Origin: an uncultured Opitutia bacterium
Lineage (GTDB): Bacteria > Verrucomicrobiota > Verrucomicrobiia > Opitutales > UBA953
Direction: 5' to 3'
DNA: 64,000 nt
NCBI GenBank assembly: GCA_945957395.1
Contig: CAMFKE010000008.1
Span: forward strand, 62,001 to 126,000
Part shown: positions 10,801-43,879 of the stretch, one piece after another
Numbering within the stretch: position 1 is the first letter of the stretch
Layout of the letters: every line of letters begins with the position of its first letter
The notes under the pieces: generated by a model
Database searches by the model: none
Told to the model about the DNA's origin: nothing
What the model saw: the letters and a program-made list of their open reading frames with translations, nothing else
Translations under genes and position numbers: made by a program

Positions 10801-13800
10801 CGGTGAGCGTGGAGGCGGAGACCTTGTTGACGGCGGAGGTGCCGGTGATGTCGCCGGCCCAGGTGCCGGTGGAGACGGTGAGGGCGCCCGCGGTGTTGTT
10901 CAGGGTGCCGGCGCCGTTGATGGAGGTGATGGTCTCGGCGCCGCCCAGGGTGAGCGTGGCGCCGGAGGCGATGGTGACGGAGGCGGTGTCGACGAGGCGC
11001 TCGGCGGAACCGAGTGTGGTGGTGCCGGTGGCGATGGTCACCGAGGAGGCGTCGGAGGTGCCGTTGAGGGCGACCGTGCCGTTGGCGGTGAGGGAGCCGG
11101 TGCCGAGGTTGGCGTTCACCACGGAGCCGGTGTTCAGCGCGTAGGTGGCGGCGGTGAGGGTCTGGCCCGTGCCGTTGAGGGTGCCGGCGTTGGACACATA
11201 GGCGGCGATGGTGTCGGCGGCGCCGAGGGTGACGGTTCCGGCGTTCGTGAGGGTGGCGCCGGAGGCGAGACCACCGTTGGAGTCGGTGAGGGTGGCGCCG
11301 GAGGCGACATTCACCGAGGTGGTGGCGAGGGAGCCGGAGAGGGTGGTGGTGCCGGCGTTGGCGTTGAAGGCGCCGGTGAAGGTGTTCGTGCCGGAGAGCG
11401 TGAGCGTGCCGGTGGAGACCTTGTTGACGGCGGAGGTGCCGGTGATGTCGCCGGAGAAAGTGCCGGAGGAGACGGTGAGGGCGCCGGCGGTGTTGTTGAG
11501 GGTGCCGGAGCCGTTGAGGGTGCCGAGGGTCTCGGCGCCGCCCAGGGTGAGCGTGGCGCCGGCGGCGACGGTGACGGTGGCGGTGTCGGCGAGGCGTTCG
11601 GCGGAGCCGAGGGTGGTGGTGCCGGTGGCGACGGTGAGGTTCGCCGCGACGGTGCCGTTGAGGGCGACCGTGCCGTTGGCGGTGGCGGCGCCGGCGCCGA
11701 GGTTGGCGTTCACCACGGAGCCGTTGTTGAGCGCGTAGGTGGCGGCGGTGAGGGTGATGCCCGCGCCGTTGAGGGTGCCGGAGTTCACCAAGGAGGTCAC
11801 GGTGTCGTCGGCGCCGAGGGTGACGGTGCCGGCGTTCGTGAGCGTGGCGCCGGACGCAAGGCCGGAAGCGGTGACGGCAAGGGTGGCGCCGGAGGCGACA
11901 TTCACCGTGGCGGTGGCGAGAGAGCCCGAGAGGGTGGTGGTGCCGGCGTTGGCGTTGAAGGCGCCGGTGAAGGTGTTCGCGCCGGAGAGGGTGAGGGTGC
12001 CGTCGGAGGCCTTGGTCAGGCCCGAGGCGCCGGAGATGATGCCGGAGAAGGTGCCGTCGGAGACGGTGAGGTCGCCGGCGAGGGTGACGGCGCCGGCGCC
12101 GTTGAGGGTCTTGATGGTCTCGGCGGAGCCGGAAATCGCGAGGGTGCCGTTGGCGGTGACGACCGCGTCGTCGGAGAGGCCGGCGGCGGTGTCGGAGAGC
12201 GTGGCGCCGGAGGCGATGGTGATCGCGGTGGAGGCGAGGGAGCCGGAGAGCGCGAGGGTGCCGGCGGACACGGTGGTGGCGCCGGTGTAGGTGGAGGCGC
12301 CCGAGAGCGTGAGCGCGGAGGCGCCGGCTTTGGTGAAGGCGCCGCCGGTGCCGCCTTCCAGACCGCCGTCGGTGATCGCGCCGGAGAAGGTGGCGTCGGC
12401 GCCCTGGTTGACGGTGAGGGTATTCGCGCCGAGGGCGACGGTGCCGGAGCCGGAGAGCGTGCCGACTGTGCGGTTGCCGGCGCCCGAGATATCGAAGGTG
12501 CCGTTGACGATCACATTGCCCGTGGACAGCGAGCCGGTGGCGCCGAGCGCGAGGGTGCCGGCGGTGACGGTGGTGTCGCCGGTGTAGGTGTTCGCGGCGT
12601 CGAGGCGCAGCACACCGGTGTGGGTGGCGTTGCCGACGGTGAGGGAGCCGTTCGAAATCACTCCCGAGAGGACGGCGATGTCGGTGTCGGCACCGGTGTT
12701 GTCGGTGACCAGGACGGTGCGGGTGGCGCCGCCGAGGTTGAGGGCGTTGACGAAGTTTACGGTGGCGTCAGCGGAGGAGGAGCCGAAGAGGAGTTCTCCG
12801 GTGACGAAGCCGGTTGTGGCACCCCATGTGATAGCGGAGCCGCTGTTGAGGCGCACGGTCAGGTCCTCTTCGATGGCGGCGAAGCCGGAGGCATCCCCCA
12901 TGGTGAACTGGGTGATGCCGGCGCCGAGTCGGCGCGTGAACTGGCCGGAAGACTGGAAGATGGCGCCGTTGGAAAGTTCGATGCGGCTCTGCGCGTGAAC
13001 GCCTTCGCCGTCGATCGCCTGCAGGACCGTGCCGTTGACGACAGTGCGGCCGGAGTAGGTGTTTTCTCCGTTGAACACGACCAGTCCGCCGCCGCTGATG
13101 GTGATGCCGGCGCCGTTGCCCGCCGCCCGGCTTGTGTCGTAATCGGAAGTGACGCTGTCGTCGGCGATGGAGCCGTTGAAGGTGACGACATTACCCGCAC
13201 CCGGGGAAATCGTGACAACGGCGCCCGCCATGATGAACATGTCGGTGCCATAGCCGGAGCCGGCCGCGCCGGCCGCCACGGTGGAAGAGCCGGCTTGACC
13301 GTTGCCGCCCCGCACATCGTTGCCGTCGAAAGTGGCGTTGCCGATGATGGTCAGCGTGCCGCCGTTCTTGACGAAGATGGCGCCGCCGAAGCCGCTGCCG
13401 CCGTTGCCTCCCGTGACTCTGGGGTCGCTGCCGGTGCCGCCGGCGCCTGCTCCTGCGCCGAAGCCGCCGTCACCGCCGGCGCCGCCGGCGCCTTTTGCGC
13501 CATTGGGGCGGGTGCCGTTGGGGTCAGCCGGGATGTATTCCTGGCCGGGCTTGGTGATGATGGTGGTGGTGTACGCGGGGGTCTGCTCCAGAATCTGATT
13601 GGAGACCGTGCCGGTGGTGCCGTCGTTGTAGGTGACGGTGGTCGTGCCCAGTCCGCTTGAGACCGCGGAATTCTTTTGATCGAGGGTCATCGACCCTTGG
13701 ATGACAACGCGCTTGATGTCGGTGGCGGAGTTGTTGTCGGGGTCGAAGGAGTAGATGACATCGTAGACGCCGACAAGGTAGGGGTCTTCGATGACACGGT

Positions 13801-15025
13801 TGTTGACCACGACGGACTGGGTCGTGCCCGAGGCGTCGGTGTAGGAGACGGTGGTCGTGCCCAGGCCGGCGGCTATGGCGGCGTCGCGTTGCGCGGCGGT
13901 AAGATTCTGTTTTCCGGCGACTTGGCCGGAGATGGTGTTGTTCCAAGCGAGCTTATCCGGGTCGTATTCGTAAACCTTTTGGTAGCTCGCGTCGACGGAG
14001 TAGGTCTTGGTTTCCGCCGGGATGGCGGGGACTTCGGGGATGCTGCCGACATTGGCGCCGGCGCCACCGTTGCCTCCATTGCCCCCGGAGCCGCCGCCGG
14101 CGCCGAAGCCACCGAGTCCGCCGGTGCCGCCGTCGCCTGCGTCGCCGCCTGCGGCGCCGCCCTTGAAGGCGCTGAGATCGCGGTTTTTCGTGCCGTTGCC
14201 GCCGTTGCCGCCGTTGCCGCCGAAGTTGCCGCCGTAACCGAAGTCGCTGGCGCCGGCGTTGCCACCGATGCCGCCGGAGCCGCCGACACCGATCTGTCCG
14301 CTGGCGATGGCCTTGTCGTAGTAAACGAGAGCGGCGGTGGCGTTGCCCAGGTCGATGCCTGCCACGACCACCTGCGCGCCGATGGCGATGGCTTCACCGA
14401 CATCGGGAGGGAAGTTGCTCAAAGCACCCGCGATTTCCGCCGCCAGTGCGACGACATTTCCGGAGGCGGAGGTGACATCGAGGATGAACGGTACAGCCGC
14501 CTCCGTGGCGTCGCCATTTCCGCCCGCGCCGCCGTGGCCGCCTCTGCCGCCCGTGCCGTTGACGCCGACGGCGCCCATTCCACCGTTGGTGCCGTTGGTG
14601 CCGTTGGCGTCAAGATAGTGGTAGGCGGTGGGGGTGCTGCCGTCACGGCCGGCGGTCGCGCCGGTGTTGTCGATGAAGAGGCCGTTGAGTGAGCCACCCG
14701 TGAAGGAGATTCCGTCCGCGCTACCGCCGATGGCCTGGTTGCCGTAGAAATTGACGTTGGTGAGGGTGACGACCGCGCCGGTGTTCACGAACACGCCGCC
14801 GCCCATGCCGGCACCGCCGCCGGAGCCGTTGCCGCCCTGGGCGGTGAGGTTGGAAAGAGTGATGTTGTTGACCGTGACGGTGCCGGACTGGACGAAGAGG
14901 CTCTCGGTCTGAGCAGTGTTGATGGTCTGATTGGTCGTGATGATTCCGGCATCGAGCAGGGCCGGTGCGGCGCTGAAGCAGGCGAGGGCGGCTCCGGCGC
15001 GGAGCATCTTCTTGGAGAATTTCAT
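1823..15025 (-). CDS. Giant autotransporter adhesin, 4400 residues, about 20 PATR units and a C-terminal beta-barrel
   Basis: Domains in order: a Sec signal peptide (residues 1-26); a Gly/Asn-rich beta-helix segment to about residue 330 with GGNGGNGG runs; a duplicated unknown module (about 337-485); more Gly-rich sequence; a repeat array (about 630-3900) with some 20 PATR cores of the type GTLTLSGANTFTG alternating with GSLATTSVNVASGATL, ADDTI and LTAATYALN..GSVVNANLG segments; a linker; and a roughly 280-residue autotransporter barrel ending SVQASVRFRF, with the terminal Phe expected for BAM recognition. The likely role is a surface adhesin or matrix protein; the ligand cannot be predicted. 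A non-repeat insertion interrupts the array near 10375-10575. Very long open frames on the opposite strand are artefacts of GC-biased repeats. No Shine-Dalgarno sequence precedes the ATG. A hairpin lies just after the stop. Confidence 0.93.
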   Translation of the reverse strand: MKFSKKMLRAGAALACFSAAPALLDAGIITTNQTINTAQTESLFVQSGTVTVNNITLSNLTAQGGNGSGGGAGMGGGVFVNTGAVVTLTNVNFYGNQAIGGSADGISFTGGSLNGLFIDNTGATAGRDGSTPTAYHYLDANGTNGTNGGMGAVGVNGTGGRGGHGGAGGNGDATEAAVPFILDVTSASGNVVALAAEIAGALSNFPPDVGEAIAIGAQVVVAGIDLGNATAALVYYDKAIASGQIGVGGSGGIGGNAGASDFGYGGNFGGNGGNGGNGTKNRDLSAFKGGAAGGDAGDGGTGGLGGFGAGGGSGGNGGNGGAGANVGSIPEVPAIPAETKTYSVDASYQKVYEYDPDKLAWNNTISGQVAGKQNLTAAQRDAAIAAGLGTTTVSYTDASGTTQSVVVNNRVIEDPYLVGVYDVIYSFDPDNNSATDIKRVVIQGSMTLDQKNSAVSSGLGTTTVTYNDGTTGTVSNQILEQTPAYTTTIITKPGQEYIPADPNGTRPNGAKGAGGAGGDGGFGAGAGAGGTGSDPRVTGGNGGSGFGGAIFVKNGGTLTIIGNATFDGNDVRGGNGQAGSSTVAAGAAGSGYGTDMFIMAGAVVTISPGAGNVVTFNGSIADDSVTSDYDTSRAAGNGAGITISGGGLVVFNGENTYSGRTVVNGTVLQAIDGEGVHAQSRIELSNGAIFQSSGQFTRRLGAGITQFTMGDASGFAAIEEDLTVRLNSGSAITWGATTGFVTGELLFGSSSADATVNFVNALNLGGATRTVLVTDNTGADTDIAVLSGVISNGSLTVGNATHTGVLRLDAANTYTGDTTVTAGTLALGATGSLSTGNVIVNGTFDISGAGNRTVGTLSGSGTVALGANTLTVNQGADATFSGAITDGGLEGGTGGAFTKAGASALTLSGASTYTGATTVSAGTLALSGSLASTAITIASGATLSDTAAGLSDDAVVTANGTLAISGSAETIKTLNGAGAVTLAGDLTVSDGTFSGIISGASGLTKASDGTLTLSGANTFTGAFNANAGTTTLSGSLATATVNVASGATLAVTASGLASGATLTNAGTVTLGADDTVTSLVNSGTLNGAGITLTAATYALNNGSVVNANLGAGAATANGTVALNGTVAANLTVATGTTTLGSAERLADTATVTVAAGATLTLGGAETLGTLNGSGTLNNTAGALTVSSGTFSGDITGTSAVNKVSTGTLTLSGTNTFTGAFNANAGTTTLSGSLATTSVNVASGATLTDSNGGLASGATLTNAGTVTLGAADTIAAYVSNAGTLNGTGQTLTAATYALNTGSVVNANLGTGSLTANGTVALNGTSDASSVTIATGTTTLGSAERLVDTASVTIASGATLTLGGAETITSINGAGTLNNTAGALTVSTGTWAGDITGTSAVNKVSASTLTVTGANSFTGAFNANAGTTTLVGSLATNSVNIASGATLRDINGGLASGATVTNAGILDLTASDETITAFVSNGGTLNFTQTYTPVTAAGPDVTVTNPGTPILIGVDSVTGAPIYTTTASTTTTVAGPAIIVGSTPNAPAKLTALTYALNNGTVINANLGTGTLTANGSVALNGTADAATVNIVSGTTTLGSAERLADTATVTVSSGATLTLGGAETIGTLNGAGTVNNTAGALTVSSGTWAGDITGSSAVNKVSAGTLTLTGANSFTGAFNANAGTTTLSGSGSLATNAVNVAVGATLNDNNGGLAATAVLTNNGTVNLGASETITTLNGTAATAAVNLGANTLTVSDGAYAGAINGTGTLVKTSSGTLTLSGNSGQTGPVSVNAGTLELTGTTASTTVTIAAGATLLDTNGGLAANATVNNHGTLTLGANETITTLNGASTGVVNLGANTLTVSDGAFAGAINGTGGLVKNTAGTLTLSGASGYTGTTDINAGVLQLTGSLASLTVNVASGASLNDVNGGLAAGATLVNAGTVTLSADDTIDTYVSNGGVLNVAGFTLTTRNYLLNTGTVTNANLGTGNVTTNGTVTINGTSDAATFTVASGTTTLGSAERLNDTGTVVINSGATLVLGGVETIGTLNGSGTLNNTAGALTVSAGTWAGDITGSSAVNKASAGTLTLSGANTFTGAFNANAGTTVLSGSLATTTLNIASGATFTDVNGGLVDATVATVNGTLTLSGAGETITTLNGASSGVVNVGGGFLTVSNGTFAGAINGAQGLVKNTAGTLTLSGSSGYTGTTDLNAGTLTLTGSTASRSVNVASGASLNDVNGGLAADATLTNAGTVTLSADDTIGAYVANSGTLAGAGRTLTAATYALNNGAVVNANLGTGSLTANGTVALNGTSAASAVTISSGTTTLGSAERLADTASVTIASGASLILGGAETIGSLNGAGTLNNTAGTLTVSSGSFAGVITGGSDVRKVSSGTLELAGANTFTGLLAVNAGTVTLTGSLATNFITVASGATLNDVNAGLAATASVSNAGVINVTLDDTIDTLNNTGVINGPGTLTAAVYNLGNGSVINANLGSGTLVVTDAAILNGTSAATLVDITPTGTLTLGSAERLLDTAVVNVNGALILGGAETIGSLTGSGSVNLAAGNLTVSSGSFSGVLSGANGLTKVSSGSLTLDGANTFAGAFNANGGTTTLNGSLATLTVNVASGASLNVVNGGLAAGATLTNAGTVSLFADDTIATYVSENGVLNLNGFTLTAANYVLNDGSVTNANLGAGNLITNGTVAINGTSSATSVTIASGTTTLGSAERLADTATLTVSSGASLVLGGAETVTTLLGSGSVTTAPAAQFTVSDGTFSGTIAGDGGLTKVSSGSLTLSGANTYTGDTRVNAGALELTGSLAGAPVFVASGATLVDRSGGLADTTRLTLDGTLDLYASESVADFSGAATGRVNLIDGGMTASAGTFAGVIAGDSTEFGLTKVSVGTLTLSGHSTFIGTARVAEGTLVLTGDLDTAAVTVDSGATLDVVNAGLAASTVLTAEGAVLVRSAESVYTLRSTGATGVVSLLGGDLTVSNGDYAGAIAGTDPAHGLEKISVGELTLRGASTFVGETHVAGGTLTLTGAGALASALVTIDAGTTLRDLSGGLADTATVVNRGTLDLGTLADDTIGTLVNSGTVNGTTTLTASTYALNSGSVINANLGAGVVTANGTVRLNGTVTAADVTIASGTTTLGSAERLADTATITVASGATLATGGAEQIGVLLGSGRLNVSAGSLAADSGSFSGVIASDNTVTGFTKTGAGVLTLSGSSTYLGLTTVSGGELVLTGTLASKSLVVGPAGTLTSESAGLSEFASLDNAGVVNLGAADETLAAYASTGTLNGSATLTAATYALNEGSVVNANLGAGSLTANGTVALNGTSAAASVTVDSGTTTLGSAERLLDTAALTVNGTLVLGGAETVASLAGTGAVNTDAGILTVSSGSFSGDITGASGLVKTSSGMLVLSGANTFSGPLSVQAGALGLSGSLATTSVTVDSGASLSDLASGLSADAAVAVNGVLYMGASDAIRTLTGSGAVLLDGGFLAVADGDFSGNLSGANDLVKNSTGTLTLSGANTYTGLTAINEGALRLTGSLASSVVMVASSGTLTNTSGALADTVFLSVEGRADIAADETVAALAGSGVVDLSGSTRLTVSLGDFSGVVSGTGSLTKSGTSILTLSGANTYTGATAVNSGTLRLTGSLTSTEVSVASGAVLESTASGLSTAATLTNAGTVNLGSADQTVLSLVNSGVLNGSATLTAAAYDLRDGSVINANLGKGAMFTTGAVMLAGTSASGAVTIGSGSVLTLASADRLSDEAVVTVDGRLVLTGDDTIWELHGNGSVDGGANSKLYILNGGTFGGTILKGTRSLTSEGDTSGGTLVLSEKVTLVGGRLQIVGTDASLSANTLQVEQGATLATDDASRLTYKVLQGSGTVSTASGTFTNAAGSTVAGTLTFSGNFSNNGTVAPGNSPGVMTVAGNFADAGVLDMELGGLGAAGMNPTGFDQIRVGGDVTLSGGVLRVLGYNGFAAARGQSFRLISDLSGGAKALSGSFSSVTFDLDGVAGPGVPVQNAAGVFDLRTGTLLTSGLNAANSKFTDLAASANERAFIGAVFAGAQLAPGQIDTATAEGRAAADILSAPTAAAASAQLAFYIPETYGALADYAFASGRLAENLANRVSPFTTLPGREPGKAAFYAGALNAETNTAHNARFTRNDFYAGADFAAASSLDLGLFGAGNTGSIRHDIGRTEAEGASVGAYAKAAISENWSIKASFVYGTEDFETKRRTLNGSVNADTKADTYSGALMAEYVAFRGESFSIAPRAGVVAGSSTVYAFTERGASDALRIGEFDTARYSARAGASAVWTTRTFGNPLSLELTGDLDQAFAGDQDDLSASLAGTPSLTYPIGVSDERSTSFLYGVNAGYGLTESASLFLGYQGRVGYAPSNSVQASVRFRF

Positions 15026-15347
15026 GACGGTCTAAGTGATTTTGGGATTCTTTGAGAGGGCTTGGCGCAGGGCTTGGTGTATAAGCCTTTTTTGCCTTGG
15101 GTGGTCTTTTGACTTATGCGCGTAAGAAATATGTCATCCTGTGTAGTCAATGCGATGTTTGGGGGATTTCACGGGGGCGGCCTTGGTCCGGGGCGGTGCT
15201 TTTTGAAGCCCTTTCCGCATTTTTTTCATAGGGATTAATATTGGTAATAATGGTGCAGCCGGGGTGTTGGCTTGGATCGCGGTATGGGTGCGCCATGGGA
15301 AATGGCGCTTTCAGCCCCCCCATCAAGGCTTTGATTGTTAAGTGTTT

Positions 15348-34361: not shown

Positions 34362-34364
34362 AAA

Positions 34365-34390
34365 GCCCGGGCCTTTCGCAAGACCCGGGC
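34365..34390. terminator. Hairpin between the convergent transglutaminase and RND pump genes
   Basis: GCCCGGG (34365-34371) pairs with CCCGGGC (34384-34390) around a 12-nt loop. Only short T-stretches follow. It lies 3 nt after the + strand stop and 24 nt after the minus-strand stop, so it can serve both. Confidence 0.6.
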
Positions 34391-34413
34391 CGGACGACAG
34401 GGGGTTGGTCGCC

Positions 34414-37400
34414 TCACTCGCGGCGAGCGGCCAGCGCGCGCAGGGCGCCGGCGCGGCCGAAGTGCAGGAACACGGTGGGAGTGAGAGCGATGTCGAGCAG
34501 CGTGGATGACACGAGGCCTCCGACGATCACCACGGCGACCGGGTGCAGCAGTTCCTTGCCCGGCTCGCCGGCGGCGAGGAGCAGGGGCGTGAGCGCGATG
34601 CCGGCGGACAACGCGGTCATGAGCACGGGCGCGAGTCGCTCCTGCGAGCCGCGTATGACCATGGCCCGGCTGAACGGTTCGTTTTCGTGGCGCATGAGGT
34701 GCAGGTAGTGGTCGATCATCATGATCGTGTTGCGCGCGCCGATACCGGCGACGGCGACGAACCCGATGAGCGTGGCCACGGAGATGTCCCCGAGCAGCCA
34801 CCAGGCCGCGACGAGTCCGCCCAGCAGGGCGAGCGGGATGTTCACCAGCACCTGCGCGGCGAGCGAGAGGCTGCCGAAGTGCGTGTAGAGCAGCGCGGCG
34901 GCGAGCAGCAGCGCTGCTGCCGCGGCGACGGCCATGGTGCGCCCTGCGGCCACGCGCGATTCGTATTCACCTTCCACCGACACGCGCACGCCTTCCGGCG
35001 CCGGCGTTTCGGCCACGAGGGCCTTCACGCGTTCGGCGACGGCGGAGAGGTCGGCGCCGGAGACATTGGCGGAGAGGATGACGCGGCGTTCGCCGTTCTC
35101 GCGGTTGATCTGCGGCGGGCCGTACTCCTCGCGCACCTCGGCGAGGTCGCCGAGCCTGTATGCGCGCCCATCGGGCGCATCCACCGGCAGCTCGCGTATC
35201 GCTTCGGGCGCGAGGCGGTGATTCTCGGGCACCTGCACGACCACGGGCCTCACGAGCGGCCCGTCCCGCCACTCGGTGACGGTGGCGCCGCCGAGCATGT
35301 CGGCGGCCAACCGGGCGAGAGCGCCGGGCGCGACGCCTGCGGCGGCGCACCTGTCGCGGTCCGGGATGACGCGCAACTGGGGCACGGACGGCAGGCGCTC
35401 GACGGACACATCGGTGGCGCCGGGGATTGCGCGCACCTTGGCGGCCAGAGCGTCGGCGTGGCGCAGAGCCTTGTCGGTGTCCTGTGCGTAGAGCTTCACG
35501 GCGATCTGGGCGGAGACGCCGGAGATCATGTGGCTGATGCGGTGGGCGAGGGGCTGGCCGACATTCATGGCGGTGCCCGGGATGGTGTTCAGCCTCGCGC
35601 GCACCTCGGCGATGACCTCCTTGCGCGGGCGGCCGCCCTCGTTGAACTCGATGTCATATTCCACGACATTGGCGCCCATGACATGGTCGGAGTTCTCGGC
35701 GCGGCCGACGCGCTGGCCGACCGAGCGGATCTCGGGGATGTCCAGCAGCATGCGCGAGCCGGAGGCGCCCACCTCGGTGGCGCGCTCGAGCGAGGTGCCG
35801 GGGGCGTTCACGAGGGACACCAGCAGCGACCCTTCGTTGAACGCGGGCAGGAAGTTTTTGCCCAGCAGAGGCCAGAGCGAGAACGCGGACGCGGTCATGA
35901 GGAGCGCCGCGAGGCAGGCCAGCCACGGGTGGCGCAGCGCGGGCCCGAGCAGCAGCTTCGCGTTCGCCGCCTTCAGGGCGCGCAGCACGAGGCTGTCTTT
36001 CTCCGCCTTGAGCGCGGCGGCGGGCAGCAGGAGCGAGGCGAGCGCGGGCACCACGGTGAGCGACACGACGAACGAGGCGAGCATGGCCACGATGGTCGCC
36101 GTCGCCACGGGCGCGAACAGTCGGCCTTCGATGCCCGGCAACGCGTAGAGCGGAGCGAACGCGAGGGCGATGAGCAGCGTGGCGTAGAGGATGCCGGAGC
36201 GCACCTCGACGGACGCGGAGGCGACGACTTCGCGCACTTCATTGGCGGGCAGTCGAGCGGTGTGAGGTGTGAGGTTCGAGGTGGCGTCAGTGGGTTGGTT
36301 TTCGGCGTCACTCCCTTTCACCTTCCACCTATCACCTGCCACCTGCTTCCGCGCCGCCGCTTCGCGCAGCCGGCGGAAAACATTCTCCACATCCACCACG
36401 GCGTCGTCCACCACGAGGCCCACGGCCACGGCGAGACCGCCGAGCGTCATGGCGTTCACCGAGAAGCCGAAGGCGGCGAAGGTGAGAGCGGAGGCGGCGA
36501 GCGAGAGCGGGATGGCGGTGAGCGTGACGAGTGTGGTGCGGATGTTGGCGAGGAACAGGATGAGCACGGCCGCCACCATGAGCGCGCCGTCGCGCAGCGC
36601 CTCGGTCAGGTTGTGCGCGGCGTGCCCGATGAACTCGGCCTGGCGGAACAGCACGATCGGCGTGGCGCCTTTGGGCAGCGTGGGCGCGAGCGCCTTGAGC
36701 GCCTCCTCGACGCGCGCGGTGAGCGCGGGGGTGTCCACGCGGGGCTGCTTGGTGACGCCGAGGATGACGCCCGGCACGCCGTTCACGAGGGCGTCGCCGC
36801 GCATGGGTGCGGGCGCGAGGCGCACGGTGGCGAACTCGCCGAGCGTCACGCGCCGGTCGCCCGGCAACTTCACCGGAGTGCCGGCGATCTTGGCGGGGTC
36901 GAGCGCAAGTCCGGTCACGCGGATGGCGCGTTCCTTTTCCGGTCCGGCGGCGAAGCCGGCGGAGGCGTTCAGGCCGGCGTCGCGCGCGGCGGCGAGTATG
37001 TCGTCCCAGGTCACGCCGAGGGCTCGCATCCGGTCCGGATCCGGAGCGATCTCAAAGCGCAGCACGCCGCCGCCGATGGGCGAGATCTCGGCCACGCCTT
37101 TGACGGCCAGCAGGGCCGGGCGCACGCGGCGCTCGGCGAGGTCGCGCAGCTCGGAGGCGGAGATGACGCCCGGTTCGGCCTTGAAACCCACGAGGAGGAT
37201 TTCGCCCATGAGCGAGGTCTCGGGCACCATCTCGACGGAGGCGCCGGGCGGGAGTTGGTCGGAGAATCCGGCGAGGCGTTCCTGCACGAGCGTGCGGATG
37301 CGCCGCGAATCCCGGCCGAAGTCGAACTCGGCGATGACGAGCGCGAGACCGGCTTCGGTGCGTGTGCGCAGGCGCTCGAGTCCGGGCACGCCTTGCAGCG

Positions 37401-37614
37401 TGCGTTCCAGCGGCGCGGCCACGGAGGATTCGACTTCCTCCGGGGCGAGGCCGGGGGCGGGGGCGAGGAGCGTGACGGTCGGCCGGGTCAACTCCGGCAG
37501 CACATCCTTGGGCAGGGTGAGCGCGCTGTGCAGGCCGAGCGCGAGCACCGCGAGTGCGGCGACGAGCACGAGCGCGCGGTGGCGCAGGCAGGCGCGGATG
37601 AGGGACTCAAGCAT
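34414..37614 (-). CDS. Heavy-metal efflux RND transporter, inner-membrane pump (CzcA/CusA family)
   Basis: A 1066-residue proton-driven pump of the HME-RND family. The N-terminal TM1 is followed by PKDVLPELTRPTVTLLAPAPG, two large periplasmic loops and about 12 helices in all. TM4 reads GLVVDDAVVDVENVFRRL. The first Asp of the CzcA-type DFG..DGA..VEN pattern is absent, which resembles the VDDAVVDVEN subgroup (HME5-like) whose metal is uncertain. An in-frame insertion of about 29-40 residues (near 424-452) follows TM4. It is encoded by a palindromic AGGTG-rich element and is annotated separately. The start codon overlaps the adaptor stop by 8 nt, indicating translational coupling. It is the last gene of the metal cluster; the terminator-like hairpin lies 24 nt downstream. 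Confidence 0.93.
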   Translation of the reverse strand: MLESLIRACLRHRALVLVAALAVLALGLHSALTLPKDVLPELTRPTVTLLAPAPGLAPEEVESSVAAPLERTLQGVPGLERLRTRTEAGLALVIAEFDFGRDSRRIRTLVQERLAGFSDQLPPGASVEMVPETSLMGEILLVGFKAEPGVISASELRDLAERRVRPALLAVKGVAEISPIGGGVLRFEIAPDPDRMRALGVTWDDILAAARDAGLNASAGFAAGPEKERAIRVTGLALDPAKIAGTPVKLPGDRRVTLGEFATVRLAPAPMRGDALVNGVPGVILGVTKQPRVDTPALTARVEEALKALAPTLPKGATPIVLFRQAEFIGHAAHNLTEALRDGALMVAAVLILFLANIRTTLVTLTAIPLSLAASALTFAAFGFSVNAMTLGGLAVAVGLVVDDAVVDVENVFRRLREAAARKQVAGDRWKVKGSDAENQPTDATSNLTPHTARLPANEVREVVASASVEVRSGILYATLLIALAFAPLYALPGIEGRLFAPVATATIVAMLASFVVSLTVVPALASLLLPAAALKAEKDSLVLRALKAANAKLLLGPALRHPWLACLAALLMTASAFSLWPLLGKNFLPAFNEGSLLVSLVNAPGTSLERATEVGASGSRMLLDIPEIRSVGQRVGRAENSDHVMGANVVEYDIEFNEGGRPRKEVIAEVRARLNTIPGTAMNVGQPLAHRISHMISGVSAQIAVKLYAQDTDKALRHADALAAKVRAIPGATDVSVERLPSVPQLRVIPDRDRCAAAGVAPGALARLAADMLGGATVTEWRDGPLVRPVVVQVPENHRLAPEAIRELPVDAPDGRAYRLGDLAEVREEYGPPQINRENGERRVILSANVSGADLSAVAERVKALVAETPAPEGVRVSVEGEYESRVAAGRTMAVAAAAALLLAAALLYTHFGSLSLAAQVLVNIPLALLGGLVAAWWLLGDISVATLIGFVAVAGIGARNTIMMIDHYLHLMRHENEPFSRAMVIRGSQERLAPVLMTALSAGIALTPLLLAAGEPGKELLHPVAVVIVGGLVSSTLLDIALTPTVFLHFGRAGALRALAARRE
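36259..36345. repeat. In-frame palindromic AGGTG/CACCT element inside the RND pump gene
   Basis: The 87-bp stretch has one arm built of repeated AGGTG-like units on the + strand (36259-36284: GGTGTGAGGTGTGAGGTTCG...) and an opposite arm of CACCT units (36311-36345: TTTCACCTTCCACCTATCAC...). The arms face each other around a 26-bp centre, so the element can fold into a long imperfect hairpin. Its GC content is clearly lower than that of the gene. It keeps the reading frame and encodes a polar peptide (GDRWKVKGSDAENQPTDATS) in a cytoplasmic loop that is short in related pumps. Confidence 0.7.
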
Positions 37615-39037
37615 CGGAAACCTCCTTGTCCTTGCGGCGGCGCAGCGCGGTGAGCGCGAGACCGAGGAGGATGGCTTCGCCGGCGGCGAGGGTGGCGAGG
37701 AAGACGATCCAGGATTCAGGCTTCAGGCTCGGGATTTCAAACGAAGCGGCGGATGCCTTTTCGTCGGCGTGATCGCTGTCCGGTCCGTGCGCATGGGGTG
37801 TGGCGGCGGTGGCGTCGTGCTTGCAGTCGGGCCCGTGCGCATGCGCGCCGCCTTGCTTTTCGAGGCCGGCGAGCGGGTCGAGATCGAGGTCGGCCATGGG
37901 CGCGTCGAGGTCGTCGTCGTGCGCTGCGGGAGCAGGGGCGTCATGCTTGCAGTCCGGGCCGTGGATGTGGCCGGGGGCGGGCGAGCCGCCTGCGCTCCCG
38001 GTGGGCGCTGCGGGTCCCTTGGTGGAGGAAAGCTCTTCGCCATTGGGGCCGTGGGCGTGGCCGTGCGCGGCGTCGAGAGCCGCCTTGAGTGAGGGCGAGG
38101 AGGAGTCGGCGTAGCGCAGGGCGAAGGAGCCCTTGGTCGCGACTTTCTCTCCGGCGGCGACGCCCGAGAGGATGGCGACGAGGTGCTCGTCGCCTTCCCC
38201 CACGACGACGGGTCGCTTCGCGTAAACCCCGGGGGCGCTTTCGACGAAGACGAACAGGTCGCCCTTGTCGCCCTGCACGGCTTCACGCGGCGCGGCCACC
38301 GGCAGTGTGGATTCCGCAAGGATCACGCGCGCCTCGGCGCGGCGGCCGGGGGCGAGGGCGCCGTCGGTGTTGTCCAGGATGAACCGGGCGGTGACGGTGC
38401 CGGCGACGGGGTCGGCGAGAGGGGAGAGCGAGTGAAGGGTGAGCTCGCGCATCGGCGCGCCGGAGGGCGTGAGGCGCGCGCGGGTGAAGCCGGCGCGGAG
38501 TTCTCCGGCCCGGTTCTGCGGTATCCTGATTTCGGCGACGAGGCGTGTGCGGTCGGAAAGGCGCAGCAGGGCGGCGTCCGGCGATACGGGCTCGCCGAGG
38601 CGCGTGAGCACCTCGGTCACCGTGCCATCGGCGAGCGCGGCGACGGGCACGAGCGCGGGTGGTCCTCCGGGTTGGCGCGACTCGATGACGGCGAGCGTGT
38701 CGCCTTTTTTCACCGAGTCGCCTAGCGCGACCTTGAGCTCGACCACGCGTCCGGCGATGCGCGGGGCGGCGGAGGAGTCGCCGCGCGGGTCGGCGACGAT
38801 TGCGCCGAGGGCGAACACGGTGCGGGCGATCCGTGCGGGCGCGACGACGGCGGTCTGCAGGCCGAGGTTGGCGCGCTGGGTTTCGGAGAGCGCGACGCGG
38901 CCGGATGCGTCGGAGCCGCCGGCATCTCCGACGAATTTCGAGACATCGGCGCAGCCGCAGGCGGTGGAGTGCGCATGTTGGGCGTGCGCGGCGAGGGGCG
39001 CGAGCGCGAGGAGGGAGAGCGGGATGATGTGTTTCAT
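37607..39037 (-). CDS. RND efflux periplasmic adaptor with His/Cys-rich metal-binding tail and C-terminal TM helix
   Basis: A 476-residue membrane-fusion protein of the CzcB/CusB type that links the RND pump to the outer-membrane channel. It has a Sec signal peptide (MKHIIPLSLLALAPLAAHA) and a short Cys pair (C27, C29). The barrel-sandwich (lipoyl-like) segment is RIAGRVVELKVALGDSVKKGD, followed by beta-barrel and membrane-proximal domains to about residue 315. From about 322 to 430 it carries an unusual tail with HGHAHGPNG and two copies of HGPDCKHD plus many other His and Asp residues. A hydrophobic helix (WIVFLATLAAGEAILLGLAL) and a basic end (RRRKDKE) close the protein. Typical adaptors lack both the metal-rich tail and a C-terminal anchor. 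The stop overlaps the pump start. Confidence 0.9.
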   Translation of the reverse strand: MKHIIPLSLLALAPLAAHAQHAHSTACGCADVSKFVGDAGGSDASGRVALSETQRANLGLQTAVVAPARIARTVFALGAIVADPRGDSSAAPRIAGRVVELKVALGDSVKKGDTLAVIESRQPGGPPALVPVAALADGTVTEVLTRLGEPVSPDAALLRLSDRTRLVAEIRIPQNRAGELRAGFTRARLTPSGAPMRELTLHSLSPLADPVAGTVTARFILDNTDGALAPGRRAEARVILAESTLPVAAPREAVQGDKGDLFVFVESAPGVYAKRPVVVGEGDEHLVAILSGVAAGEKVATKGSFALRYADSSSPSLKAALDAAHGHAHGPNGEELSSTKGPAAPTGSAGGSPAPGHIHGPDCKHDAPAPAAHDDDLDAPMADLDLDPLAGLEKQGGAHAHGPDCKHDATAATPHAHGPDSDHADEKASAASFEIPSLKPESWIVFLATLAAGEAILLGLALTALRRRKDKEVSDA

Positions 39038-39083
39038 TGTGAGAAGGTCATTGTTGTGGGTGTGATTTTCAGGGTGGGCATAA

Positions 39084-39392
39084 TCAGCGGCGGCCTTGTT
39101 TCTTTTTCGCATCGGAGAATGCCCTGTTTCGGATCTCGGAGAGGTCCTTCCTGGCCTCGTCGAGAGACTTGCGGGCGGATTCGATGGCTGCCTTGTCTCC
39201 CTTTGATTCGGCGTCTCGGAGGGCGTCCCGGGCATCTTTGTATCTTTTTTCTGCAGCGTTGACCTTGGGGTCATCTGAGACGTCGATGGACTTGTATACT
39301 CGGGGGCGCACATTGCGCGCTTGGAGTGAGGGGATGATCGTACCAGAGGCGATCAGGGTGAACAGCAGGGTGATTTGGGTAAACTTGTTCAT
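39084..39392 (-). CDS. Small exported coiled-coil protein of the metal cluster, unknown function
   Basis: 102 residues from the Met at 39392. A hydrophobic signal segment (ITLLFTLIASGTIIPSLQA) is followed by a charged, mostly helical segment (EKRYKDARDALRDAESKGDK, then SARKSLDEARKDLSEIRNRA) that should form a coiled coil or helical hairpin, and a basic tail (KKKQGRR). No family is recognised. It lies between the TolC-like channel gene (89 bp) and the adaptor gene (46 bp) on the same strand, so a periplasmic helper for assembly of the pump is a reasonable but untested idea. Base composition is lower in GC than in the flanking genes. Confidence 0.65.
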   Translation of the reverse strand: MNKFTQITLLFTLIASGTIIPSLQARNVRPRVYKSIDVSDDPKVNAAEKRYKDARDALRDAESKGDKAAIESARKSLDEARKDLSEIRNRAFSDAKKKQGRR

Positions 39393-39480
39393 GTTGGACG
39401 CAGCGCCGCCGTTTCCCCTTTTAGGGGAGGTGGCGCCTAGTTTTTCGTTTTGTGTGGAGGTCTGCGCTTGGGCGCGGACT

Positions 39481-40971
39481 TTATTTGGCGGAGCCGACAA
39501 AGCCGATGCGCGCCTTGAGCGCCGGGTGGGCGGCGGAGGCGGTTTCCCATCGGATGTACGCGAGCGCGGCGTCGCGGCGCAGCGTGAGCAGGCGGGTTTC
39601 GAGCTCGGCCTCCTTCTCGCGGGCGCGCAGGAGTTCGGCGTAGCCGACTTCGCCGCGCGTGCGTGAATCCCGGATACGCTCGGTCAGCGCGCGGGCGGCG
39701 GGGAGCAGTTCCGTGCGAAGCGGGCGCATGAGCGCGCCAAGTCGCGTGTACTCGCCCCAGGCGGTGGCGGACGCACCTTCGGTCCGCAGGTTCTCGGCCG
39801 CCAGCTCGGCTTGCAGGCGCTCGCGACGGGCGCGCGCGGAGCGGATTTCGCCGCGGTTGTCGTCCCAGAGCGGCAGGGGGATGGAGACCTTGACGCCGAC
39901 GAACCCGGCGGGGTTGTTCGAGGAGCCGCCGGTCTCGCGTTCGATTTCGCCGTAGAGGCCGACGCCGATGTCGCCGGTGCGTCGAGCCTCGGCCAGTCGC
40001 ACGGCGGTGTCCGCGCCGTCGGCGAGGATTTTGCCGCGGCGGAAGTCGGGGCAGTCCTCGGCGGCCAGTGCCGGGCGTGCGCCGGGTGTGGCGTCGGGCT
40101 CGGGCAGTTCCCCGGTGATGGCGATGGGCGCGTTGGGGGCGAACCCGAGGCGGGTTTTGAGCCGGTCGAGCGCGGCGGCGCGGGCGGATTCGACGCGGGC
40201 GGATTCCGCCTTGGCGTCGGCGAGCGCGAGTTCGGCGTAGGAGGTGTCGAGCGGGGATTGCGCGCCACCGGCGGCGAGCGCGGCGGCGGATTTCGCGGCC
40301 TCGTCGGCGAGCGCGATGCGTGCGGCGAGCAGGCGCAGCTCGGCGGTGAGGGCGATCGCCTCGACGGCTTCGCTTTTCACGGCGCCGATGAGGTCGCGCT
40401 TCGCGGCGTTCACCTCTTCGCGCGCTGCCGCCACCTCGGAGGCGGCGAGTTCGCGGGCGAGGCGGAGGCGTCCGGTGATGGGGAATCGCTGGGTGATCCC
40501 GGCGGAGAAGCGGTATGCGCCGGAGGCGGTGACGCCCGGGGCGAAGCCCGTTTCGAGTTCGGGGTTGGGCATGAGCCCGGCGCCGTCGAGCCGGCCTTGC
40601 GCCTCGTCCACGATGAAGGCGGCCGCGCGCAGGTCGCGATTGGCCTCCAGCGCGCGGGCGACGGCGGATTCGACGGTGAAGGACAGCGGTGCGGACGGGG
40701 CGGCGGCGCGATCCTTCGCGCAGTCGGGGCATTGGCAGCCTTCGGGGGCGGCCGCCTGGGCGGGCTGCGCCGACGGGACGGGCGTCGCGAAGGCGACCTC
40801 AGGTTTTGCAGTGGCGGGGACGGGCACCGGCTTGGTCCGGCTGGCTGGCGATGCGGATGTGGCGCAAGTGCCGCAGGCGCATGCGTCGGGCTTTGCAGCG
40901 TGAGCCTGAAGCGCCGGATGGATGAGTGTCAGCGCGGCGATAAGGTGGCCGCGCGTAAGGAGTGTGTGCAT
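39481..40971 (-). CDS. TolC/CzcC-family outer-membrane efflux channel with N-terminal Cys clusters
   Basis: A 496-residue outer-membrane efflux protein that would complete the tripartite metal pump. A Sec signal peptide (to about residue 26) is followed by a linker with two CxCxxC clusters (C31-x-C33-x2-C36 and C79-x-C81-x2-C84), which are absent from ordinary TolC proteins. The two OEP repeats then start at about residue 95 (TVESAVARALEANRDLRAAA) with long amphipathic helices, the GAGLMPNPELETGFAPG segment and SIPLPLWDDNRGEIRSARAR. The Cys-rich linker could bind metal in the periplasm or form disulfides. It precedes the small coiled-coil, adaptor and pump genes. Confidence 0.9.
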   Translation of the reverse strand: MHTLLTRGHLIAALTLIHPALQAHAAKPDACACGTCATSASPASRTKPVPVPATAKPEVAFATPVPSAQPAQAAAPEGCQCPDCAKDRAAAPSAPLSFTVESAVARALEANRDLRAAAFIVDEAQGRLDGAGLMPNPELETGFAPGVTASGAYRFSAGITQRFPITGRLRLARELAASEVAAAREEVNAAKRDLIGAVKSEAVEAIALTAELRLLAARIALADEAAKSAAALAAGGAQSPLDTSYAELALADAKAESARVESARAAALDRLKTRLGFAPNAPIAITGELPEPDATPGARPALAAEDCPDFRRGKILADGADTAVRLAEARRTGDIGVGLYGEIERETGGSSNNPAGFVGVKVSIPLPLWDDNRGEIRSARARRERLQAELAAENLRTEGASATAWGEYTRLGALMRPLRTELLPAARALTERIRDSRTRGEVGYAELLRAREKEAELETRLLTLRRDAALAYIRWETASAAHPALKARIGFVGSAK

Positions 40972-41077
40972 GTGAATCTGAAAAAACGGACGGTGATGTC
41001 GGCACGCACGCCCGCCAACGGGTGTGCGTGATGAAGGGCCGGGCGGATTTCACCCGTCGGCGGTCACGGTCGTTTTG

Positions 41078-41506
41078 TCAGATCAACAAGGGGAGGGCGC
41101 CGCGTCCGTGCGTCTCGCGTGGGGGTTGTGACGGCGGCGCTTGGGGGCGATTCGCTTCAAGGCCGATGAGTTCACATTCGATGAAAAGCTGATTCAGGGG
41201 CGCGTAAAAGGCTACGCAGGGCTCCGGTGTCAGGTTTTTCAACGGGGCCTTCTCGCCAATTGCAGCGTCTTCGCTCTCAAACGATTTGCACACCCCCGCT
41301 TTTTTGCCCTCCGGTGTTTTTTCGCATGGCTCCTGACCGGCGGGGCATGAATCTGCCACTCCTTGGTCACAGGAATCACCCATGGCATGGAGGTGGGACG
41401 CTCCGCATGGATGCTCGCACTTCGCCACCGCAGACGGGGCTATGACCATCGTCCAGAACAGGACGAGAGTCATCACTGGCGCGAGCCATGTGTGGATGCG
41501 TTTCAT
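41078..41506 (-). CDS. Cys-rich small exported protein in the metal efflux cluster
   Basis: 142 residues with a signal peptide (HTWLAPVMTLVLFWTMVIAPSAVA, probable cleavage after AVA). The mature part has eight Cys (30, 34, 46, 54, 61, 73, 97, 111), several with neighbouring His or Glu (KCEHPCGASHLHAMGDSC). No known family is recognised. The even Cys number in an exported protein suggests disulfides, while the CxxxC and His residues also suit soft-metal binding. It sits 48 bp after the P-type ATPase stop and 106 bp before the TolC-like gene, all on one strand. Its location supports a role as periplasmic metal scavenger or chaperone. Function is inference only. Confidence 0.68.
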   Translation of the reverse strand: MKRIHTWLAPVMTLVLFWTMVIAPSAVAKCEHPCGASHLHAMGDSCDQGVADSCPAGQEPCEKTPEGKKAGVCKSFESEDAAIGEKAPLKNLTPEPCVAFYAPLNQLFIECELIGLEANRPQAPPSQPPRETHGRGALPLLI

Positions 41507-41554
41507 TAGACTCTGCCTTGGGAATTGATTGCGAATTGTAAGTCAAGCGACGAC

Positions 41555-43546
41555 TTATCGTAGCAGGCGCAGTGCGTTCGCCACGACCAGCAGTGTTGCG
41601 CCTGTGTCGGCGACTATCGCAAGCCAGAGCGAGGCATGTCCGGACAGCGTGAGCATGAGGAACAGCGTCTTGAGTCCGAGTGCGAAGGCGATGTTGAACC
41701 GGATGACGCCCATGGTGCGACGCGCCAAAATGACGGTGTCGGCGACCTTGGTGAGATCGTCCTGCATGAGCGCGATGTCGGCGGTTTCGATTGCGGCGTC
41801 ACTGCCTGCGGCTCCCATGGCGATACCCACTCCAGCGGCGGCCATGGCCGGGGCGTCGTTTACGCCATCGCCGATCATGCCGACCACGCCATGTTGTTCG
41901 CGCAGGGTTTTCACGACGGCTACCTTGTCAGCCGGAAGAAGCTCACCGTGGGCGCGGTCGATGCCGACTTGGCCGGCGATGTGGTCGGCGGCGCGCTGAT
42001 TATCGCCGCTGAGCATCACGAGGGTTGATACGCCTGCGGCTTGCAGCGCGCGCACCGCCTCGGCGGCGTGGGGGCGCACGGTGTCGCCGATAGCGATGAT
42101 GCCCAAGACCTCCCCTGCGCAGGAATCATGAGGCTTGTGGCCGACGATGACCACGGACTGACCTTTGGCTTCGATCAGCCGGATGCGGTGCTCAATTTCC
42201 GCCGAGCAGATTCCCAGCTCATGGGTGAACCGGTGGTTGCCCACGAAGTAGGCGTGATTGTCTCGGGTGCCCTCGGCACCGCGTCCGCCGGTCGCCCGGT
42301 AATTCTCCGTGCGACGCGGTTCGATTCCGACTGATTTTGCGTGGGCGACGACCGCTTTGGCGATGGGGTGCGCCGAATGCTCGTCGATTCCGGCGGCAAG
42401 GCCGAGGATGTCGTGAACTGACAATTTGCCGAGGGACTCCACATTTAACACGCGCGGCTTTCCCTCGGTGATCGTGCCTGTCTTGTCCATCGCGAGCGCA
42501 CGCAGCCTCGCGACGGTTTCCAAGTGGGCGCCGCCCTTCACAAGCACGCCGCGGCGCGCGAGCGCGGTGAGGCCCGCGACGATGCTCACGGGGGTCGAAA
42601 TCACGAGGGCGCAGGGGCAGGCGATGAGAAGTAATACGCAGGCGCGGTAAAGCCATGCCGACCAATCGCCACCGAAGAACATCGGAGGGAGAATGAACAC
42701 CAGCAAAGCCCCCAGTGTGACGGCCGGCGTGTAATAACGCGCAAAAGTGTCCACGAAACGCTGGGTGGGGGCGCGCTGTTCCTGTGCTTCCCTCACGAGC
42801 CGGATGATGCGCGCGAGTGTGGTGTCGCCAGCCACCTTGGTGACGCGGACTTCCAGCGAACCTTCGCCGTTCACTGTACCGGCGAAAACGGTGTCGCCGG
42901 CGCGTTTGTCCACGGGCGTGGATTCGCCGGTAATGGGCGATTGGTTCACGGCGGATTCCCCTGCGATCACTTCGCCGTCGAGCGGGATGCTCATGCCAGT
43001 TTTCACAGCGATGATGTCGCCTGCGGCGACCTGCTCCACCGGAATTTCGCTGAAGCGGCCGGCACGCTTCACCTCCGCCAGTTTCGGGGTGATGTCGAGC
43101 AGTGCCTCCGTCGCTCGGCGGGCGCGCCTGTCGGCCCATCCCTCAAGCCACTCCGCGACGCCGAAGAGAAAGACCACGGTCGCCGCCTCGACCCACTCGC
43201 CGATGACCGTCGCGCCGAGCGTGGCGATGAGCATGAGCAGGTTGATGTCCGGATACAGTCGTCGCAGGGCGGCGAGGGCCTTCGGAAAAACGAACCATCC
43301 GCCAGACACGATAGCGCTGATTGACAGGATTGTCGCCGCCTGCTGAGGCAGCAGCTTCGTCCATGCGTTCATCACCACGAATGCCAAGAGAGCACCCGAA
43401 ATCAAAAGGCTCAGGCCCTCGGCGTTGGATTCCGCATGTGAAGAGCCGCAGTCTCCACACCCCTTCCTTTCCCCGGGTGCATTTTGGTGGTCATGTTTAT
43501 GACCCGAGTGGCAGGGTGCGGATTTGTGATGATGCAGGCGGGACAT
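41555..43546 (-). CDS. Heavy-metal P1B-type ATPase (ZntA/CadA-like)
   Basis: A 663-residue metal-exporting ATPase. It has TGES in the actuator domain, the CPC transport motif in LIACPCALVISTP (C310, C312), phosphorylation Asp354 in DKTGTITEGKPR, the HP motif in DEHSAHPIAKA, GDGVNDAPAMA in the hinge, and about eight helices. The pattern with CPC and downstream KTLFLMLTLSGHASLWLAIVADTG is that of Zn/Cd/Co/Pb exporters (P1B-2). There is no N-terminal HMA domain; a His/Cys-rich leader (HHHKSAPCHSGHKHDHQ, then GCGDCGSSH) takes its place. I start at MSRLHHHK (43546) because it begins the His-rich leader; an ATG at 43597 is possible. It is the first gene of the cluster. No ArsR- or MerR-type regulator adjoins it. 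Confidence 0.95.
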   Translation of the reverse strand: MSRLHHHKSAPCHSGHKHDHQNAPGERKGCGDCGSSHAESNAEGLSLLISGALLAFVVMNAWTKLLPQQAATILSISAIVSGGWFVFPKALAALRRLYPDINLLMLIATLGATVIGEWVEAATVVFLFGVAEWLEGWADRRARRATEALLDITPKLAEVKRAGRFSEIPVEQVAAGDIIAVKTGMSIPLDGEVIAGESAVNQSPITGESTPVDKRAGDTVFAGTVNGEGSLEVRVTKVAGDTTLARIIRLVREAQEQRAPTQRFVDTFARYYTPAVTLGALLVFILPPMFFGGDWSAWLYRACVLLLIACPCALVISTPVSIVAGLTALARRGVLVKGGAHLETVARLRALAMDKTGTITEGKPRVLNVESLGKLSVHDILGLAAGIDEHSAHPIAKAVVAHAKSVGIEPRRTENYRATGGRGAEGTRDNHAYFVGNHRFTHELGICSAEIEHRIRLIEAKGQSVVIVGHKPHDSCAGEVLGIIAIGDTVRPHAAEAVRALQAAGVSTLVMLSGDNQRAADHIAGQVGIDRAHGELLPADKVAVVKTLREQHGVVGMIGDGVNDAPAMAAAGVGIAMGAAGSDAAIETADIALMQDDLTKVADTVILARRTMGVIRFNIAFALGLKTLFLMLTLSGHASLWLAIVADTGATLLVVANALRLLR

Positions 43547-43879
43547 GGAGGTTGTAAGGTTGCTGTTCGAAATGAAACACGAGTGGAGACTGCTCACTGT
43601 CTGGCACCAAAATCGGCGCGGGCCATGTGCGGGGTTGCTTCATTCTCTCTACCGATGGCGCTACTCGCCACGACGGCTCTGTCAAACCCGCTTGCCCATT
43701 CGTTGGGTTCCCATGTTTCTCTTGGAACCCATCAGGCCGGGGTGTTTGCCTCTCGCGTTGGTCTGCGGTGATGGCCGGAGGAGGCCGGGAGGGGCGTCCG
43801 CGGGTGCATGCGAATCTTGTGCGCCGGGGATTTATCCGGGCTTGCCCGTCGTGCTCGCATCCCTACGAACCCCCGACCC
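43547..43879. promoter_or_regulatory. 333-bp divergent intergenic region (metal cluster / fabV)
   Basis: No gene is seen. It should contain the promoters of both the metal cluster (minus) and fabV (plus). An imperfect dyad, AGTGGAGACTGCTCACT at about 43583-43599, lies about 40 bp before the ATPase start and could be an operator. No convincing -35/-10 pair was found on either strand. Confidence 0.4.

Follow-up and report, generated by a model that had tools for sequence, protein, structure and literature searches.

The 64,000-nucleotide stretch of contig CAMFKE010000008.1 from an uncultured Opitutia bacterium (the window) carries at positions 34414-43546 a metal-export cluster of six open frames, all on the minus strand. 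Its products, in 5' to 3' order, are a P1B ATPase, an exported protein with eight cysteines, a TolC-family channel, a small coiled-coil-type protein (the coil protein), a periplasmic adaptor and a resistance-nodulation-division (RND) pump. The cluster is a known kind of toxic-metal export unit whose His-rich parts are common to its relatives in the class, and only a few Cys clusters are its own. With moderate confidence, we read it as a unit that exports divalent soft metals, Zn2+/Cd2+ and possibly Pb2+, in two steps. Its most interesting feature is the class of its adaptor, which is hairpin-less, C-terminally anchored and marked by an invariant HGHxH immediately ahead of the anchor. The analysis established the gene set, folds, family membership, conservation pattern and recurrent neighbourhood. 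An earlier note, made from the letters alone, had proposed six metal-efflux genes on one strand, and the minus-strand open frames and Pfam/NCBIfam identities bear this out. The genes, with the basis of each call, are as follows.

41555..43546, minus strand: P1B-2-type heavy-metal ATPase, 663 aa (Pfam/NCBIfam, PDB match, tree)
41078..41506, minus strand: small exported 8-Cys protein, 142 aa (position before channel gene)
39481..40971, minus strand: TolC-family channel, CzcC/CusC type (OEP, fold model)
39084..39392, minus strand: small exported coiled-coil-type protein, 102 aa
37607..39037, minus strand: RND periplasmic adaptor (HlyD_D23/TIGR01730, alignment, fold model)
34414..37614, minus strand: CusA/CzcA-type RND pump, subgroup VDDA[IV]VDVEN (ACR_tran, PDB matches)

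Components of the export cluster

The ATPase is identified by Pfam and NCBIfam (E1-E2 ATPase/TIGR01525), with both TIGR01525 and TIGR01512 above their cut-offs. It carries CPCALVISTP in transmembrane helix 6 (TM6) and DTGATLLVVANALRLLR, as in ZntA, the context of its TM8 Asp fits P1B-2, and its best PDB match is the zinc ATPase ZntA (4umv). It is 49% identical to the Pb-type ATPase next to cadR on pMOL30, which we take to be PbrA, and 39% identical to CzcP. These features place it in the P1B-2 class (ZntA/CadA/PbrA), for which Zn, Cd or Pb transport is predicted. No HMA domain was found in it. Its first 50 residues hold three Cys and eight His (a longer GTG start at 43597 is possible), and because P1B pumps have a cytoplasmic N-terminus this leader lies in the cytoplasm. 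The RND pump matches ACR_tran over its full length (723 bits), and its top PDB matches are CusA and ZneA, not drug pumps. The Met triad of CusA/SilA is absent, the SilA Met positions being occupied by Ser, Val and His (the third is His in most RND relatives too), which disfavours a Cu/Ag pump of the Cus/Sil type. The pump contains no CxC, CxxC or HxH. From the ATPase class and an RND pump without the Met triad we infer specificity for Zn, Cd or Pb.

Relatives were gathered in a census of 62 same-class loci with an RND pump of the window type (41-51% identical; VDDA[IV]VDVEN), where a channel gene is adjacent in 59 and an adaptor gene in 61. The adaptor of the window belongs to HlyD_D23 and TIGR01730 (99.0 bits against a cut-off of 94.9). 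In its predicted model, residues 50-310 mostly score above 90 in predicted local distance difference test (pLDDT), with barrel and lipoyl domains and no alpha-hairpin; residues 340-436 are disordered and 440-475 form a helix. CusB, ZneB and the hairpin-less BesA are the nearest folds, and the profile match to biotinyl-lipoyl carriers runs uninterrupted. RND adaptors have been reviewed as anchored by an N-terminal transmembrane helix or a lipid (PMC4446572). This one has neither: its N-terminus is cleavable and signal-like, with CGC at residues 27-29 and no lipobox, and a transmembrane helix stands at the C-terminus instead. A limited text search of the literature found no paper on C-terminally anchored adaptors.

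Just before this helix lies the His motif, HGHAH at residues 325-329. In an alignment of 37 adaptors, SLxxALDAAHGHxH..DG is invariant, including H325, H327 and H329, and S-L-x-x-A-L-D-A-A-H-G-H-x-H is among the best-conserved stretches. AxHGHxH occurs in 49 of the 61 census adaptors, all 49 of which have a C-terminal hydrophobic helix (0/59 among the channels, used as a control). A His-rich adaptor thus belongs to the family as a whole and is not an addition. What distinguishes the window adaptor is the linker between HGHxH and the transmembrane helix, which has 114 residues with two Cys and three further HxHGPD units; the linkers of the 49 other adaptors have a median length of 34 residues and contain no Cys. 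The window adaptor has four HxHGP[ND] units, at residues 327, 357, 399 and 415, and CKHD follows two of them. The extra HxHGPDCKHD units resemble repeats of the core HAHGPNGEE, and a repeat search found two DNA copies 77% identical over 44 nt. Elsewhere, two RND adaptors (L202:6686-8512 and L204:6082-7971) have 23-25 Cys in tandem units like WCKEHDRYEDRCWLCHPELEEKDR, ahead of the adaptor domain.

The channel has OEP domains and a predicted model with the TolC/CusC fold, SilC and CusC being the best matches. Two CxCxxC clusters (residues 31-36 and 79-84) both lie in a disordered extension of the mature N-terminus, at about residues 22-90. In the model, residues 24-74 are disordered and order begins near residue 96, some 30 residues ahead of the first barrel strand. 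This geometry would put the clusters in the half of the periplasm nearer the outer membrane, a long way from where metal leaves the ATPase. At about 1.4% Cys we estimate that roughly 1/700 of such proteins would carry a CxCxxC, so chance does not explain the clusters. They are not a family trait either: the mature N-termini of the relatives' channels are free of Cys clusters, and three apparent CxC in relatives belong to a signal peptide or seem to precede the true start. The channel's two CxCxxC and the adaptor's Cys-bearing HxHGPDCKHD repeats are the only motifs specific to the window.

The small exported protein has Cys at residues 30, 34, 46, 54, 61, 73, 97 and 111, and five His. Its gene occupies the CzcI/SilD position, just before the channel gene. 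It has no Pfam match, and a homology search gave no match to CzcI and a weak one to SilD (E 0.08); against profiles of the relatives' small proteins E was about 0.002-0.005, in a set of 35 only. We do not regard it as a proven CzcI homologue, the likeness being one of position only. By a simple filter, at least 36 of 59 class loci have a small exported Cys/His-rich protein directly upstream of the channel gene. Several sequence groups can be told apart among them, such as CDCGG...DHCHGPHG and ...DKPPLI, and they lack a Pfam assignment save for a sub-threshold DUF2946 match that CzcI also gives. To judge by gene position and composition, the 8-Cys protein probably serves to buffer periplasmic metal or to regulate activity in the manner of CzcI/SilD. 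Small exported proteins of the CDCGG...DHCHGPHG..CH family were seen before CzcC-like genes at L164, L167, L241, L243, L245 and L262 (the L243 member, when tested, had no Pfam match). Others, of a conserved type that ends in CxEC..AEYACxC, follow CzcA-like RND genes (L196:6469-6984, L197:6688-7197, L199:11088-11576 and L060:6340-6804, the last without a Pfam match), and small proteins that look PII-like by eye adjoin metal RND genes (L196:6954-7331, L201:8411-8749 and L203:16242-16673).

The coil protein contains no Cys and no His. It belongs to a family of small, exported, charged proteins with four copies in the source genome (window 39084-39392; G000:C6:112534-113173; G000:C13:12065-12364) and no relatives among 289 genomes of the phylum. 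As the paralogues on C6 adjoin a predicted protease-like gene and those 289 genomes hold no relative, we rejected a role as a metal part.

Recurrence and probable modular assembly

A P1B ATPase gene lies within 6 kb of the window-type RND gene, on the same strand, in nine of the 62 class loci, and seven of these nine ATPases are 53-57% identical to that of the window. One of the seven (L200) had been chosen via its ATPase; the other six are unbiased. L200 has a small Cys/His protein, channel, adaptor, RND pump and ATPase all on one strand. A scan of genome contigs found three loci, among them L048, from a Deltaproteobacteria metagenome-assembled genome, with an RND pump of the window type (43% identical).

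The window ATPase itself has another affiliation. In the tree it is sister (100/99) to an ATPase on contig C13 of the same genome, inside a group linked to another RND type and apart from the ATPases linked to window-type RND pumps. Four further genomes have ATPases 66-71% identical to it that adjoin this other RND type. G+C content is 0.635, 0.594 and 0.560 in the ATPase, 8-Cys and coil genes, compared with 0.73/0.72/0.71 in the triad of channel, adaptor and RND pump. Tree placement and G+C contrast together indicate that the cluster was built from modules, its ATPase apparently coming from a different cluster type. We found no sign of a plasmid-borne origin, as matches in the plasmid collection were all below 60% identity and the 8-Cys protein had none.

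These comparisons bear on the earlier note in several ways. Its view that P1B ATPase and RND triad belong together is upheld by the nine same-strand loci, and the search of other genomes that it called for found the same five-gene set in L200. It had further held that nearly every periplasmic part carries extra Cys/His clusters. That is true of the exported protein, channel and adaptor, three of the five parts in the periplasm or envelope, but not of the coil protein or RND pump, and the ATPase leader is cytoplasmic. Nor are the ligands a shared addition, since the adaptor His motif is old and near-universal and a small Cys/His protein before the channel is common in relatives. The note would have given up its proposal if relatives had the same pump genes without the Cys/His additions and with equal resistance; relatives that have these pump genes and lack the Cys additions do exist, which goes halfway towards refuting it.

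Gene layout and known systems

The genes are separated by 48, 106, 88, 46 and -8 nt, in cluster order, and are flanked by a convergent transglutaminase-like gene (end 34361) and a divergent fabV. Longer open reading frames for the adaptor and coil genes are over-extended, the real starts being ATG 39037 and ATG 39392, respectively. From this arrangement the six genes are likely to form one operon, although co-transcription, like each transfer step discussed below, is inferred. In the cluster region, the promoter scan gave no sigma-70-like promoter and the Rfam scan found nothing; terminator-like sites were no commoner than in shuffled sequence. The hairpin in the 88-nt channel-coil spacer was considered as a dispersed repeat and rejected, having no other copy in the genome. 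Two further features lie within or beside the RND gene:

36240..36345, minus strand: in-frame insert of GGTGRNA heptads plus inverted arm, cytoplasmic TM4-TM5 loop of the RND pump
34364..34391, minus strand: GC-rich hairpin past the last gene, weak candidate terminator (terminator scan)

The loop has 53 aa, compared with 21 aa in 54 of 62 relatives, and the insert of roughly 32 aa, which the earlier note did not mention, is unrelated to metal ligands. Its codons are GGTGRNA heptads with an inverted arm, a dispersed element with further heptad arrays of this kind at other places in the genome; (GGTGRNA)n arrays were also seen at the ends of contigs C1, C2, C8 and C11. Since five relatives have unrelated TM4-TM5 loops of 32-45 aa, this loop tolerates insertions. 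Elsewhere in the window, 1823-15031 (minus strand) encodes a Gly/Thr/Ala-rich exported repeat protein of about 4400 residues that contains a single Cys and ends in a barrel like that of autotransporters.

Among known systems, czcNICBA...P of Cupriavidus metallidurans pMOL30 has the same order (the small Cys/His protein CzcI, then CzcC, CzcB and CzcA), a P1B ATPase (CzcP) in the same island and, in CzcB, an adaptor that also has His-rich ends. However, the window RND pump is only 30% identical to its CzcA, with VDDAVVDVEN in place of IDGAVVIVEN. CzcB has an N-terminal transmembrane helix, no C-terminal one and no HGHxH, the window adaptor being the opposite on each count. CzcC lacks the Cys extension, CzcP is P1B-4 whereas the window ATPase is P1B-2, and the czcRS, czcD and czcE of pMOL30 have no counterpart at the window cluster. 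The pairing of a P1B-2 ATPase (CadA/ZntA) with CzcCBA, acting in sequence, is that of Pseudomonas aeruginosa (PMC7242495), where the genes are separately regulated (CadR, CzcRS); in the window they are adjacent, on one strand and without an adjacent regulator. CusB, ZneB and BesA share the barrel, membrane-proximal and lipoyl fold of the window adaptor, and BesA also lacks the hairpin, but the C-terminal anchor and invariant HGHxH set the window adaptor apart.

The cluster on C13 is a second metal-export cluster in the source genome. Its ATPase is 82-84% identical to that of the window, with a Cys/His leader, and it shares the coil protein (57% identical), a small Cys protein and an RND triad. 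Its RND pump, in contrast, is 47% identical to CzcA and its channel lacks the Cys extension. Because the C13 adaptor too has gained Cys, ending KGGAGCGC where four relatives end KGGGHSH, an exchange of thiol for imidazole has occurred in two systems of this lineage. A Tn3-family transposase and a phage-type integrase lie near this cluster (L060, G000:C13:1-19999), and directly upstream of its ATPase is a C-terminal piece of an RND pump that contains a stop.

Competing readings of the export route

In two-step export, the P1B-2 ATPase would move ions from cytoplasm to periplasm, and the RND pump, with its C-terminally anchored adaptor and channel, would move periplasmic ions out of the cell. 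The adaptor HGHxH, near the inner-membrane anchor, probably captures metal close to where the RND pump takes it in, and either passes it on to the pump or acts as a gate; the 8-Cys protein probably buffers or regulates. The Cys on the channel extension and in the adaptor repeats would be recent local additions that increase periplasmic thiol binding, not links in a chain from the ATPase. We favour this route from ATPase through periplasm to RND complex because of its precedents: inner-membrane exporters feed CzcCBA in Cupriavidus (PMC11647595), CadA and then CzcCBA act in sequence in P. aeruginosa (PMC7242495), metal-RND adaptors such as ZneB and CusB bind and present metal (PMC4446572), and CzcI has been described as further controlling how active CzcCBA is (PMC11647595). 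Several points weigh against it. The RND pump scores 624 bits with TIGR00914, under the cut-off of 701, though this model ranks first; we thus file the pump as CusA/CzcA-like and not as CzcA or CusA, and some doubt attaches to its substrate class. Internal promoters or partial termination could occur in the 106-nt gap and in the 88-nt gap with its hairpin, and no metal regulator gene adjoins the cluster.

The earlier note had envisaged a single relay in which the Cys/His clusters of exported protein, channel tail and adaptor tail pass metal on, one to the next, from the ATPase to the RND pump. The genes for ATPase and RND pump do recur together, the adaptor His segment beside the inner-membrane anchor is in the right spot to meet metal leaving the ATPase, and Cu/Ag is known to be relayed from CusF through CusB to CusA (PMC4446572). 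We nevertheless consider such a relay improbable: the leader of the ATPase is on the cytoplasmic side and the channel clusters lie towards the outer membrane, about 60 relatives all lack the Cys of channel and adaptor, the ATPase is from another cluster lineage, and the coil protein and RND pump are without such motifs. Tails and small protein might instead only store or sense metal and tune the pumps, with a shared periplasmic pool and no directional transfer. Disordered, fast-evolving tails that vary in length and ligand would suit this, as would CzcI as an extra control of CzcCBA activity (PMC11647595) and the link between ATPase and RND system in P. aeruginosa, which runs via periplasmic sensing (PMC7242495); but an invariant adaptor HGHxH exceeds the need of a mere buffer, and we find the idea rather unlikely. 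Least probable are two unrelated units, a horizontally acquired ATPase and small protein beside an independent RND operon. G+C contrast, ATPase phylogeny and the 106- and 88-nt gaps speak for this, whereas ATPase and RND pump are found paired independently in different families and with different RND types, and the small protein goes with the triad elsewhere.

Two-step export would leave room for a more specific and, at present, doubtful proposal: that across the class the HGHxH of the C-terminally anchored adaptor catches metal at the inner-membrane surface on its way out of the P1B ATPase and feeds the RND pump, and that in the window lineage the site was multiplied and given thiols, with a second thiol zone arising on the channel. 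The Cys clusters look like local embellishment. For Zn and Cd the question is whether inner-membrane ATPases hand ions directly to RND pumps or empty into a shared periplasmic pool, and the membrane-proximal HGHxH on a C-terminally anchored adaptor offers one small, mutable site at which direct handoff may be tested.

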